Source of the DNA: Nitrospinota bacterium
GTDB taxonomy: Bacteria; Nitrospinota; Nitrospinia; JACRGO01
Length of the DNA stretch: 12,753 nt
Assembly: GCA_016212295.1 (NCBI GenBank)
Contig: JACRGO010000124.1
Coordinates: 1 to 12,753 of the forward strand
Direction: 5' to 3'
Positions 1,123 to 12,730 of this stretch are shown piece by piece; the first letter of the stretch is position 1, and the number at the start of each line of letters is the position of its first letter. The position numbers and the translations under genes were made by a program. The notes beneath the pieces are model-generated. The model ran no database searches, had not been told where the DNA came from, and saw only the letters and a program-made list of their open reading frames with translations.

Positions 1123-1227
1123 CGCCGCTCGTTTGCCTCCCTCGGCCACTGCATGGAAACTTATATTATTACGTTCAGAAATTTGTGTTTTCCGCGCAAA
1201 ACGCAAAGGCCCTTCCGGGCAAAAAAA

Positions 1228-1243
1228 TAAGTAGTTATACTTA
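1228..1243. promoter_or_regulatory. upstream dyad operator, imperfect copy
   Basis: TAAGTAG and ATACTTA flank a 2-base TT centre, giving a 7-2-7 dyad with one mismatched pair next to the spacer. The core GTAGTTNTAC is shared with the dyad centred 23 bases downstream, so the two would sit on about the same face of the helix. The 7-2-7 arrangement is the one used by NarL-type GerE domains, and a GerE protein is encoded just downstream. Confidence 0.6.
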
Positions 1244-1247
1244 CTCA

Positions 1248-1269
1248 AAATACGTAGTTCTACGTATTT
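1248..1269. promoter_or_regulatory. perfect 22-base dyad operator
   Basis: AAATACGTAG and its exact complement CTACGTATTT flank a TT centre, a perfect 10-2-10 dyad. Its centre (1258.5) lies about 43 bases before the start point predicted from the adjoining promoter, and its right end touches the -35 element. Activators that contact RNA polymerase commonly bind at this position. The most economical reading is autoactivation by the GerE-type protein at 1450, but another regulator is possible. Confidence 0.65.
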
Positions 1270-1295
1270 ACAATTGGAGAAAAACGTTGTAAAGT
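1267..1295 (+). promoter_or_regulatory. sigma70-like promoter of the small regulator unit
   Basis: TTTACA (1267-1272, 5 of 6 consensus bases) and TAAAGT (1290-1295, 4 of 6) are separated by exactly 17 bases. Transcription would start near 1302, leaving about 28 bases of leader before the ATG at 1330. The -35 overlaps the end of the perfect dyad at 1248-1269, which ties the promoter to that operator. Confidence 0.55.
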
Positions 1296-1329
1296 GTCCC
1301 CTACAAAAATAAAAAGAGAGGGAGCGGGA

Positions 1330-1443
1330 ATGTTTATGGACCAGGAAAAAACCAGACTGATAAGGTTTCTTACGGTCTCGTCAATCCTCTGCGTATTTAT
1401 TATTTGGCTCCTGTTCGGGATAATTGACTGGGCTTTGGCATAA
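1330..1443 (+). CDS. 37-residue single-span membrane peptide
   Basis: This short frame has a purine-rich ribosome site (GAGGGAG, 1317-1323) about 6 bases before the ATG. It encodes a charged N-terminus (MFMDQEKTRLIR) followed by one hydrophobic stretch at about residues 13-32 that contains C21 and W26, then D33-W34. It looks like a small inner-membrane protein with the charged end in the cytoplasm. I do not recognise a family. It lies 28 bases after the predicted transcription start and 6 bases before the GerE-type gene, so the two should be cotranscribed. It could be a membrane partner or sensor for that regulator, or a leader peptide that controls its translation. The methionine at residue 3 is an alternative start. 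Coding status rests on the ribosome site, composition and position only. Confidence 0.55.
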   Translation: MFMDQEKTRLIRFLTVSSILCVFIIWLLFGIIDWALA

Positions 1444-1449
1444 GTAAAA

Positions 1450-1653
1450 ATGAAAATTGGAAATAAATTGACGGAGCAGCAGTCGAAGGTCGGCAAGTTG
1501 GTTCAAGAAGGATTGTCGGAAGCGGAAATCGCCATCTTCCTTGGCGTCGGTGAAAAGACAGTAAAAAGGCATATCGAGAGCCTGTGCAAAAAGACCGGCA
1601 CAACGAACAGGAAGGAATTGGCAAGGAAAATTTCCCATGTAATAGACGATTAA
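1450..1653 (+). CDS. stand-alone LuxR/GerE-type DNA-binding protein
   Basis: The 67-residue product is almost entirely a GerE-type helix-turn-helix domain. The start LTEQQSKVGKLVQEGLSEAEIA matches the family's first helices. GVGEKTVKRHIESLCKK is the recognition-helix region, with the usual S/G-E-K-T-V-K-R-H pattern, and TTNRKELARK the last helix. No receiver, autoinducer or PAS domain is present, as in Bacillus GerE. The ATG has no good Shine-Dalgarno sequence and lies 6 bases after the stop of the 37-residue membrane peptide, so translational coupling is likely. Two 7-2-7 dyads upstream of the shared promoter suggest that it regulates its own unit, probably as an activator. What signal it answers to is not visible. 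Confidence 0.85.
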   Translation: MKIGNKLTEQQSKVGKLVQEGLSEAEIAIFLGVGEKTVKRHIESLCKKTGTTNRKELARKISHVIDD

Positions 1654-4757: not shown

Positions 4758-4881
4758 GTAAGAAAGTGGCAGAGGCACAAAGGCGCAGAGGCATAGAGGT
4801 TTTAAAAACCCGGCAATAACTTTCTTTTAATTTTCTAACTTTGTGCCTTTGCCCCTTTGTGCCCCTCTTCCTCTTTCCTAC
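4758..4881. repeat. inverted word repeat (AGGCACAA) between convergent genes
   Basis: The left arm (4758-4799) runs GTAAGAAAGTGG then AGAGGCACAAAGGCGCAGAGG. The right arm (4838-4881), read on the minus strand, runs GTAGGAAAGAGG then AGAGGGGCACAAAGGGGC, so the arms match over about 42 bases with a few changes and one 2-base gap. The inner word has a period of 8-9 bases. The right edge overlaps and supplies the TAG stop (4878-4880) of the minus-strand receiver gene. Lying between converging genes, it could end transcription in both directions, though it lacks a classic T-run. Confidence 0.8.
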
Positions 4882-5543
4882 GACTTCTTCCCCTCCGATG
4901 TATCTATTTCCTCCCTCCCGTGAAATTTCGTGGTGGTGATGGACTCGGCGCTGGACAATCTGTCCAATGCCTTGGAAATCCTCTGCGCGCTTTCCTTGCC
5001 CTTTTCAAACCAGACGCCGCACTTGGGGCAGGTTTTCATTTTTTCCAGAATCATGCCTATGGAGACCAGGGGATTGCGCACCTCGTGGTCCACTGACATC
5101 ATGGTGGCCCTTAAAATCCTCAACCTCTCCAGGTCGATGCATCTGCGCGTGAGTTGGGCTATTTTCAAATGGGCCTCGACACGGGCCACGAATTCCTTGG
5201 AGTGCTCCGCCACGTTGGACTTGTTTATAAAGTCGCAGGCCCCCAGCTTTAGCCCCTCTACCTCCATTTTTTCAAAATCGCTGTAAAATATAATTTCCGG
5301 CAACAGCCTGGTTTCCTCCCTGCCCCTCAATCGCCTGAAGACCTCGAAACCGTCGATTCCGGGCATTTTGATGTCCAGCAACACCAGGTCGTAATCGTTT
5401 TTTGCGCACATGGCCAGGCCTTGCTCTCCGTTTTCCGCGAGATCAAGCGCATGGCCTCCTTTTCTCAGGACATCCTTGGTGATGGCCCGAATGGTTGATG
5501 AATCATCTATCAAAAGAATTTTAGGGGTTTCTTCCGCCGGCAT
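4878..5543 (-). CDS. receiver domain fused to a DHp histidine domain, no ATPase
   Basis: Residues 7-125 form a receiver domain: acidic pair D13-D14, phosphoacceptor D57 in LVLLDIKMPG, switch residue S88 and lysine K108 in FINKS. Residues about 130-205 look like the dimerisation/histidine-phosphotransfer (DHp) domain of a histidine kinase, with H-box H153 in VDHEVRNPL and the second helix ending RISKALDRLSSAESITTTKF. The protein then stops at 221, so the whole HATPase_c domain is missing. C172-x-x-C175 (CPKC) sits in the DHp hairpin and could bind metal or sense redox state. It may relay phosphate between D57 and H153 for other kinases, or be a truncated hybrid kinase. The ATG has AGGAG 6 bases upstream. 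The stop codon lies in the edge of the adjacent inverted repeat. Confidence 0.88.
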   Translation of the reverse strand: MPAEETPKILLIDDSSTIRAITKDVLRKGGHALDLAENGEQGLAMCAKNDYDLVLLDIKMPGIDGFEVFRRLRGREETRLLPEIIFYSDFEKMEVEGLKLGACDFINKSNVAEHSKEFVARVEAHLKIAQLTRRCIDLERLRILRATMMSVDHEVRNPLVSIGMILEKMKTCPKCGVWFEKGKESAQRISKALDRLSSAESITTTKFHGREEIDTSEGKKS

Positions 5544-9832: not shown

Positions 9833-12730
9833 TCAAATAAACCTCCTGACCCTTGGAATGAAGTCCTCCGCCATGAAGGGCTTGACCACGAAATCATTCG
9901 CCCCCTTCTGAAAGGCCAGCTTGCGGGTCTCTATTTTACTGTCGCTGGTCATCATGATAAACGGGATTGATTTTAATTTCTGGCTGCTTTTAGCGAAATC
10001 CAAAAGCTGGAACCCGTCCATCTCCGGCATTATGGTGTCTGAAATTATCAAGTGGGGCGTTTGTTCCTCAAGAATGCGGGCGGCTTTTTCACCGTTTTCG
10101 GCTTCCAGGAAATCGATGCCGGTTTCCGAGAGAAACTTAATCGCTATCAGACGCGAAAAGGCGTCATCGTCCACGATCAGGACCTTCGGCCTCACATCAG
10201 GCAGGTTTATATAGAAGGTCGTCCCCTCGTCCTTGGATAATTCCACTGTAAGAGAGCCGCCAAGGGCCTTTACTATATCACTGCAAAGTGGAAGCCCCAG
10301 GCCGGTCCCTTTTTCCCCTCTAGTCCCCTTCGTGGTTGTCTTGACGTCCGCCCTGAAAAGGTCCGGGACAATCCTGGGGTCCATTCCAATTCCGTTGTCC
10401 CTTACCGCGATCACGCTTGGTTTGCCTGGGGGACTGAAAATAGTGGCGCGGTTTCCCTCGTTGCAGAACTTTATGGCATTTGAAACAAGATTGTGGACCA
10501 CCTCGCCTATAAGGTCCATGTCTCCGTAAACCATGGTGGCTGGAGGTATCTTGTTTTCCAGGACCACGCCTTTTTCCCTGGCCATGTAGCTATAATCTCC
10601 CATGGCTGAAAGAGCGGTTAAGGACACGTCAAAGAATTTTTTGTTAAGAATTATTTTTCCGGTTTGCAGCCTTGCGATTTTAAGCAGTTCATCAACCATG
10701 TGGACAAGATTGTTCCCGGCGTTTATCGCCCTGGAAACCATTTCCTTGTGTTTAGGCGCCAGAGGGTCTTGCGCGTCATCATGCATTAATTTCATGAACC
10801 CAAGGATTGAGGCAAAGGGCGACTTCAAATCATGCGCGACAAGGGCGACGAATTTGTCCTTTATCTTCGTGGCTTCCTCGGCCTCTTCCTTGGCCCTGAC
10901 CAGGTCGCCTTCCACCTGCAACCGCTCCAGTTCAGCGGCCGCGCGGACCGCGAATATTTCAAGCATTGACACGGGGATATTAGGCGATCCCAGGCGCTTG
11001 CGGCCTATTATCGCCATCAGCCCCAGCGCGGAGCCGTCCGATTTTAAAAGAGGGGTCCCCAGGTAGCATTCCGCGCCCATTTCCTTCAGCATGGCGTCTT
11101 TTGGAAAAAGCTTGGCGATTGCGCCGGGATAGAAGCATAAGCCGCTGTTCCAGACCCTTTCGCACGGCGTGCCGTCCAAATGATATTCAAAGTTTTCGAT
11201 TATTTTTCCGTTGTGGCAAGCCGCGATGGTTCGCGCCTTTACTTCCTTGCGTGAAGTTATCTCCGCGATGTGGACGTATTCCATATCCAGCGTCTTGGAG
11301 AGGTATTGGACAAGGGAACTGAAAAAATCCTTTCCTGTGAATCCCGCCACTCCAGCGGCTATGTTTTTCAGCGTCTCCTCCGATTCCTTTCGCTTAGTGA
11401 TGTCATGCATAACACAGGTCATGTTTTCGATTTTGCCTTCCCCGTCCCGCGTCAGACAAGCAGATAAAAGGACCGGGATTTTAGAGCCGTCCTTTTTTAC
11501 AATGTATTTTTCCTCGCCGGTTATGTTTTCCTTTTGAACCAATTCCTTTATCCAATTATCTTCGTGGTCTTTTCCTCCCCGGCAGACGGCCTTGCACGGC
11601 ATGCCAATAAGCTCGTCCATTGTATAGCCGAACAGCCGGCTGGCTGCGTTGTTTGCCTTGGCAATAATGGCTTTATCGCATGTCTGGCAATCATTATTTG
11701 AAAGATCAATGACCAGCAAGGCGTCCATCATGGACGCGAAGATGCCTTCGACATAATCCCTTGAAAAAACGCTCTCCTGTAAATTTTTGGCCATTTTATT
11801 GAAGGCTTCCGACAGCATTCCGACCTCATCGCTTGATTTAACGCCGATTTGCTGGCGCAGGTCTCCCTGGCTGATCCTTCCCGCCATTTCGGTCAGGCTT
11901 GTTATTGGACCGGAAATGCTCCTGGAAATATAAATGGAAACAGCCATTGGCGCGAATGAGATAAAAATCATGGCAATGCCCAACAGATTTTTGAGGTGGT
12001 TGATTGGGGCATAAGCCTCCGCCTTGTCGATTTTAACCACGAGGCCCCAGTCAACGCCTTCAATATACCTGGTTGCGGCAAGCACCGCAGCTCCGCGGTA
12101 GTCCACAAAATCCGTGAAAAGATTTTCATTTTTAAGCAGCGCCTGGGTGATAGGAACGTCTTTTTTCGTTTTAGGGACTGTCCTTTTCAGCGTCGCGTCC
12201 TTATCAAATCTTAACGGCATGAGAAACAGGGCGTCCCCATTGGGGTCCCTTTTAGCGAGAAGCGTTTCCCCGGTCTTCCCTAGTCCGGAATAATCCATGA
12301 TGACGGAAGTAATGCTATGAAGATCGACCACTATTATTGCCACACCCAGGATGTCCTTTTCCTTGAGAACAGGGCCGGCAAAATAAATTTTTTCCGCCTC
12401 GCCGCCATGAAAGGAAAAAGAGTCAACAAAATTTCCCTTATTGCCGGCAAGGAAAAAATTTTTGTTGGAATGATCTTGCCCTATATGGGCCTGTTCCGTG
12501 GAGGCTACTATCTTTCCATTTAAATCCAGGATGGAAATCTCCCTGAATTCGTCTATCGCCGATAACGCGTCCCGCAGTATGAGGTTTATTTTGTCGCGGC
12601 GCCCGGCCACTGGATCAGTTAATATGTAGGCAGTCTTCCTCCGGGTTAAAATAGCGGTTGATAACCTTAACCCTTTAGCGGAGGAGAAACGGCCATGAAG
12701 AAGTCTATAGCAAAAAAGAGTTCCGGGCAA
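9833..12730 (-). CDS. hybrid histidine kinase (Cache-HAMP-PAS-GAF-kinase-receiver)
   Basis: Domains in order, counted from the TTG at 12730: an extracytoplasmic double-Cache-like sensor (about 25-240, with FREISILDLNGKIVAST and VDWGLVV); a membrane helix (about 247-268); HAMP (269-322); PAS (325-448) with an unusual cysteine set C348, C351, C379, C383; GAF (455-605); HisKA with H633 in VAHDLKSP; HATPase_c with N751, D778-N779-G780 and GTGLGL at 808-813; receiver with D854-D856, D898, T928 and K950. All kinase and receiver key residues are present, so it should autophosphorylate and pass phosphate to D898. The odd point is the N-terminus: Cache kinases begin with a membrane helix, and none is visible here. 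The frame stays open to the window edge, so the start is uncertain. The 3' neighbour is the methyltransferase gene, 143 bases away. Confidence 0.9.
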   Translation of the reverse strand: MPGTLFCYRLLHGRFSSAKGLRLSTAILTRRKTAYILTDPVAGRRDKINLILRDALSAIDEFREISILDLNGKIVASTEQAHIGQDHSNKNFFLAGNKGNFVDSFSFHGGEAEKIYFAGPVLKEKDILGVAIIVVDLHSITSVIMDYSGLGKTGETLLAKRDPNGDALFLMPLRFDKDATLKRTVPKTKKDVPITQALLKNENLFTDFVDYRGAAVLAATRYIEGVDWGLVVKIDKAEAYAPINHLKNLLGIAMIFISFAPMAVSIYISRSISGPITSLTEMAGRISQGDLRQQIGVKSSDEVGMLSEAFNKMAKNLQESVFSRDYVEGIFASMMDALLVIDLSNNDCQTCDKAIIAKANNAASRLFGYTMDELIGMPCKAVCRGGKDHEDNWIKELVQKENITGEEKYIVKKDGSKIPVLLSACLTRDGEGKIENMTCVMHDITKRKESEETLKNIAAGVAGFTGKDFFSSLVQYLSKTLDMEYVHIAEITSRKEVKARTIAACHNGKIIENFEYHLDGTPCERVWNSGLCFYPGAIAKLFPKDAMLKEMGAECYLGTPLLKSDGSALGLMAIIGRKRLGSPNIPVSMLEIFAVRAAAELERLQVEGDLVRAKEEAEEATKIKDKFVALVAHDLKSPFASILGFMKLMHDDAQDPLAPKHKEMVSRAINAGNNLVHMVDELLKIARLQTGKIILNKKFFDVSLTALSAMGDYSYMAREKGVVLENKIPPATMVYGDMDLIGEVVHNLVSNAIKFCNEGNRATIFSPPGKPSVIAVRDNGIGMDPRIVPDLFRADVKTTTKGTRGEKGTGLGLPLCSDIVKALGGSLTVELSKDEGTTFYINLPDVRPKVLIVDDDAFSRLIAIKFLSETGIDFLEAENGEKAARILEEQTPHLIISDTIMPEMDGFQLLDFAKSSQKLKSIPFIMMTSDSKIETRKLAFQKGANDFVVKPFMAEDFIPRVRRFI

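Follow-up and report, generated by a model that had tools for sequence, protein, structure and literature searches.

Gene content and putative promoter region of the unit

A two-gene unit was identified on the forward strand of the window, the whole stretch of 12,753 nucleotides that was analyzed, flanked by an exonuclease-III-like gene on one side and a TPR gene on the other. The following features were assigned to it:

1224..1246, + strand: imperfect upstream dyad TAAGTAGTTATACTTAC, centre near -66 from the predicted transcription start
1248..1269, + strand: perfect 10-2-10 dyad AAATACGTAGTTCTACGTATTT, with the 7-2-7 core TACGTAG-TT-CTACGTA, centre near -43
1267..1272, + strand: -35 element TTTACA, overlapping the right arm of the perfect dyad
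1290..1295, + strand: -10 element TAAAGT after a 17-bp spacer, assigned by consensus match only
1320..1324, + strand: probable Shine-Dalgarno sequence GGGAG of the peptide gene, read from the sequence
1330..1443, + strand: 37-aa single-span membrane peptide MFMDQEKTRLIRFLTVSSILCVFIIWLLFGIIDWALA, span by hydropathy, without Pfam match
1450..1653, + strand: 67-aa stand-alone GerE (LuxR/NarL-type) DNA-binding protein lacking a receiver, by Pfam match and fold class

The initial annotation had described a 10-2-10 dyad with a copy 23 bp upstream, a -35/-10 pair with a 17-bp spacer, a 37-aa peptide and a GerE gene 6 bp further on, and all of these elements were confirmed in place.

The peptide has a best 17-aa Kyte-Doolittle mean of 2.79 and probably lies N-in, based on the positive-inside rule; a search of the Pfam families with E values up to 10 gave no match. 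The GerE gene starts 6 bp past the stop codon of the peptide gene. On inspection by eye, the GGGAG sequence is a fair Shine-Dalgarno site for the peptide, while the ATG of the GerE gene has none, which makes translational coupling to the peptide gene plausible. The 67-aa protein matches the Pfam GerE family (2.7e-10; 40.1 bits, cut-off 23.5) over profile positions 2-55 of 57. GerE is its only domain and no receiver was detected in it, which sets it apart from NarL/FixJ response regulators. A close relative of this protein (P0002) was found neither in viral contigs nor, outside this genome, in the phylum sample.

No response regulator gene was found among the neighbors of the dyads, and no terminator within approximately 200 nt after them. 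Two signaling genes occur elsewhere in the window on the minus strand, a hybrid histidine kinase (9833-12730; HAMP, PAS, HisKA, HATPase and REC domains, with a weak dCache match) and a REC protein without GerE (4878-5543). Both are candidate partners of the peptide.

The perfect inverted repeat at 1248-1269, AAATACGTAG-TT-CTACGTATTT, was found once in the window with up to three mismatches allowed, and not at all in 200 shuffles. The dyad at 1224-1246 precedes it by a step of exactly 23 bp; the two are 78% identical over 23 nt and have GTAGTTNTAC in common. Matches to the -35/-10 type were close to chance in this region (3 found versus 2.4 expected), so that support for the promoter comes from its position and not from the match itself. 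The transcription start is predicted near position 1302, which would put the centres of the two dyads near -43 and near -66, sites that would suit an activator. The proposal of the initial annotation that these are 7-2-7 operators of the GerE/NarL type at such a site was thus upheld, and the sequence evidence supports their being real NarL-type operators.

Dyads elsewhere in the genome

The genome-wide scans were pattern searches, and the -35 hexamer was absent from the core query. Tandem dyads with the exact 23-bp step were located on contigs C78 (the window), C35, C46 and C1, and a single dyad on C204, a regulon-like spread; the initial annotation had named a dyad shared by other target genes as support for its model. 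In four of these five cases the dyad is directly adjoined by a -35-like hexamer, at the same offset as in the window. The hexamers at the dyads are:

C78: TTTACA
C35: TTTACA
C46: TTGACA
C204: TTGACT
C1: TTGCTT

Downstream of the C35 dyads lies a gene, cut off near the contig end, for a PAS protein whose N-terminus is hydrophobic. The C46 dyads are followed by a gene for a secreted-type protein that includes a poly-C tract, and the C204 dyad by a small ORF and then a gene for a secreted-type protein. The dyad-controlled secreted-type ORF of C46 (L037:1600-1640, genome G000) opens with a long poly-C, a possible site of phase variation. A two-mismatch match to the motif at C174:24323 apparently lies inside a gene and was dropped.

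The bare palindrome TACGTAN4TACGTA, with one mismatch allowed, was found in six places versus four for a reversed-pattern control; five of the six are exact and all six have the GTT centre. The strength of the set lies in exactness, the GTT centre, spacing and promoter position.

The tandem dyads might also be copies of a small mobile repeat beside which the ORFs are incidental. C78 and C35 are nearly identical over approximately 45 bases spanning the dyads, and several of the dyad contigs end in insertion-sequence-like DNA. However, C46, C204 and C1 differ in sequence yet keep the dyads, the 23-bp step is constant in the tandem pairs, the -35 abuts at four of five loci, and the motif stands beside response regulator genes in other phyla. 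This explanation is considered very improbable.

The motif in other genomes

In a sample of 77 genomes of the phylum the exact motif was found only in this genome. A single scan of 84,980 species for the motif together with TTKAC gave 15 loci; by our own estimate, chance alone would give about one to three. They belong to Flavobacteriaceae and other Bacteroidia, Chloroflexi, Neomarinimicrobiota and one further bin. The motif TACGTAGTTNTACGTA thus recurs in Flavobacteriaceae, Chloroflexi and Neomarinimicrobiota, and also in phage contigs. Two Winogradskyella genomes searched with the pattern lacking the -35 hold 7 and 11 exact copies, compared with 0 and 1 for the reversed-pattern controls, which allowed up to one mismatch.

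The motif lies between a response regulator gene and its neighbor in Neomarinimicrobiota (L169), while in Chloroflexi (L163) a response regulator gene is followed by the dyad and then by TadE-like genes. Tandem dyads, CTACGTAGTTCTACTTAGTTTATCTACGTAGTTCTACGTA, also precede ORFs in seven phage contigs (L076-L082), as though a host response regulator were being exploited. At L092 a dyad precedes a 155-aa ORF whose Cys/Ser-rich C-terminus resembles that of a modified-peptide precursor.

Response regulator loci of Flavobacteriaceae

In five Flavobacteriaceae-type loci the gene of a REC+GerE response regulator lies immediately 5' of the dyads. The order is a full NarL-type response regulator, dyads, short terminator-ended transcripts and a single-span peptide. 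Such regulators are present in 31 of the 60 genomes of the family sample, and 29 of their loci were read. A palindromic dyad lies just downstream of the regulator gene in 21 of the 29 and nowhere else in those loci; a small single-span peptide, mostly of 32-47 aa, occurs in 22, and 17 have both. The peptides can be aligned, with a consensus of roughly FIIGLxIxxxxxISINILVNFF; that of L233 is distant and was excluded from the alignment.

A strict intrinsic terminator was present 50-170 nt past the dyad for 10 of 38 dyads versus 7 of 540 random positions. Tandem dyad-driven short transcripts are predicted between the response regulator gene and the membrane peptide in L158-L162 and L206-L234; many are terminator-ended, with TAGGG near the 5' end, and they gave no match to Rfam families. 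These loci appear to work like the GacA-RsmX/Y/Z system, in which a GerE-type response regulator acts via an upstream dyad on short terminator-ended small RNAs. The window unit differs from that system, having neither a terminator-ended RNA nor an Rfam match. A literature search on the motif, on response regulators with small RNAs and on stand-alone GerE proteins found no description of this module of regulator, dyads and peptide; CrbR, a response regulator with a palindromic motif, surfaced in the same search.

The window resembles the Flavobacteriaceae loci in the dyad, TACGTAGTTNTACGTA, and in the single-span peptide behind it, of 32-47 aa in those loci. It differs in that they have a full REC+GerE regulator upstream of the dyads and tandem terminator-ended short transcripts, and the likeness between the peptides is weak. 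Alignment of the window peptide to theirs gave 8.2 bits, a borderline value which 4 of 499 composition-preserving shuffles equaled. Topology and promoter type are common to the two groups; common descent would go beyond this borderline sequence likeness. The link that the initial annotation drew between a membrane peptide and a GerE-type regulator stands in part: peptide, response regulator and dyads recur together in another phylum, but the pairing with a stand-alone GerE protein does not. Ten further mini-GerE ORFs, taken from relatives and from genomes that carry the motif, all lack an upstream peptide and dyads, and the pair of the window is thus so far unique. The absence of the peptide beside these ten is a finding of the kind that the initial annotation had itself named as counting against its model.

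Candidate regulators for the dyads

Four GerE proteins are encoded in the genome: the response regulators of C233 and C213, a 379-aa LuxR-like protein of C128, and the window protein. Scored against a profile of motif-linked GerE domains, they reached 79.6 (C233), 73.8 (C213), 38.4 (C128) and 19.7 bits (window), the window domain being the poorest of the four. The recognition helix reads RTVEKHK/R in the motif-linked response regulators, RTVEKHR, which is the same, in C233, and KTVKRHI in the window protein. Likeness to such a profile is only an indirect guide to DNA specificity, and may point to the response regulators.

The C233 regulator has an ortholog in a genus mate (55% identity), where AATGATTAGTACTACCTATTTACA follows its gene. 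Another relative (G002) has the order kinase, response regulator, two weak dyads 23 bp apart followed by TTTACC, and a second response regulator. Variant dyads thus lie beside regulators of the C233/C213 subfamily in two relatives of the window genome, and the window unit has the dyad type linked to C233-type regulators, sited at the -35. No dyad was found in the 3-kb neighborhood of C233 or C213.

The initial annotation had the 67-aa GerE protein activate its own unit. More broadly, this protein might bind the dyads and act as an activator or repressor, both of its own unit and at the remaining dyad loci. The peptide would then be a tether, a sensor or a translational control; the initial annotation saw in it a candidate for the input of the GerE protein. 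The GerE gene sits directly downstream of the dyads, and no genome sampled from the phylum other than this one has the exact motif or the stand-alone GerE protein, a joint distribution that would also fit the GerE protein as the binder. Small GerE proteins without a receiver exist in the phylum. Proteins of approximately 175 aa with an apparently membrane-spanning N-terminus and a GerE domain are common in the class, which makes membrane tethering of a GerE domain plausible. However, the recognition helix is unlike that of the motif-linked regulators, which carry both receiver and GerE domains, and the profile score is the lowest of the four (19.7 versus 79.6 and 73.8 bits); the ten other mini-GerE ORFs lack upstream dyads and peptide alike, and relatives tie the dyads to response regulators without such a protein. 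Self-activation was accordingly not borne out as first proposed, and autoregulation in any form is considered unlikely, if still worth weighing.

The 175-aa proteins, with a coiled stretch between the N-terminus and the GerE domain, are conserved and widespread in the class (L010, L011, L014, L015, L018, L019, L028, L030, L032 and L034). A 75-aa GerE protein of the genus mate was set aside, having neither dyad nor peptide. Bacillus GerE (1fse) is likewise a DNA-binding protein of approximately 70 aa without a receiver, but has low sequence similarity to the window protein. We know of no stand-alone mini-GerE regulator paired with a membrane peptide.

Proposed function of the unit

Based on these sequence comparisons, the unit is probably, by a modest preference, an output operon of a NarL-family two-component system, because the motif is tied to full response regulators elsewhere and the helix of C233 matches theirs while that of the window GerE protein differs. 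A phosphorylated response regulator, most likely C233 or its paralog C213, would bind both 7-2-7 dyads 23 bp apart and activate sigma-70 polymerase at the abutting -35. Activation would yield the 37-aa membrane peptide and, through translational coupling, the 67-aa GerE protein. For the peptide, the most likely role would be that of a connector at the membrane or a feedback element acting on a sensor kinase. The GerE protein may pass the signal on as a secondary regulator; EvgA and safA-ydeO of E. coli offer the model for this arrangement. Counting against an output operon are the lack of dyads near C233 and C213, the weak peptide likeness, the co-distribution of motif and GerE protein, and a palindrome count near that of the control.

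EvgA belongs to the NarL family; SafA has approximately 65 aa compared with 37 for the window peptide, and YdeO is AraC-type whereas the window regulator is a bare GerE domain. In that system the two genes driven by the response regulator encode first a small membrane protein, which passes a signal to a further sensor kinase, and then a transcription factor (PMC5706723). The window unit likewise has a gene for a small membrane protein, single-span by hydropathy, and then one for a transcription factor. MgrB is a feedback membrane peptide of the two-component system PhoQ/PhoP (PMC2789325). It resembles the window peptide as a small membrane protein under two-component control (PMC2789325, PMC8404706), which is proposed for the latter, and differs in having 47 aa and PhoP control, the window peptide having 37 aa and no Pfam match. 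Both parallels serve as working analogies, not homologies.

Under response regulator control, the GerE protein might instead be a dominant competitor or heterodimer partner which, lacking a receiver, damps the regulon of the activating regulator. Its fold class is that of NarL and DevR, and the operon sits behind dyads of the response regulator type, but its divergent recognition helix makes such a role doubtful. An equally speculative proposal is a widespread, so far undescribed signaling module in which a NarL-type regulator works with TACGTAGTTNTACGTA dyads and a membrane peptide of 32-47 aa that feeds back on signaling at the membrane. The window would be a reduced form of it, with a receiver-less GerE protein and the peptide together replacing the receiver as input.

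A two-gene unit that looks like an orphan is tied by these comparisons to a response regulator operator conserved across phyla, and, in Flavobacteriaceae at least, small single-span membrane peptides recur among the outputs of this operator. To our knowledge, most known examples of small membrane peptides tuning sensor kinases come from enterobacteria. With the recurrent signature of response regulator, dyads and peptide, such feedback could be sought in culturable marine Flavobacteriaceae.
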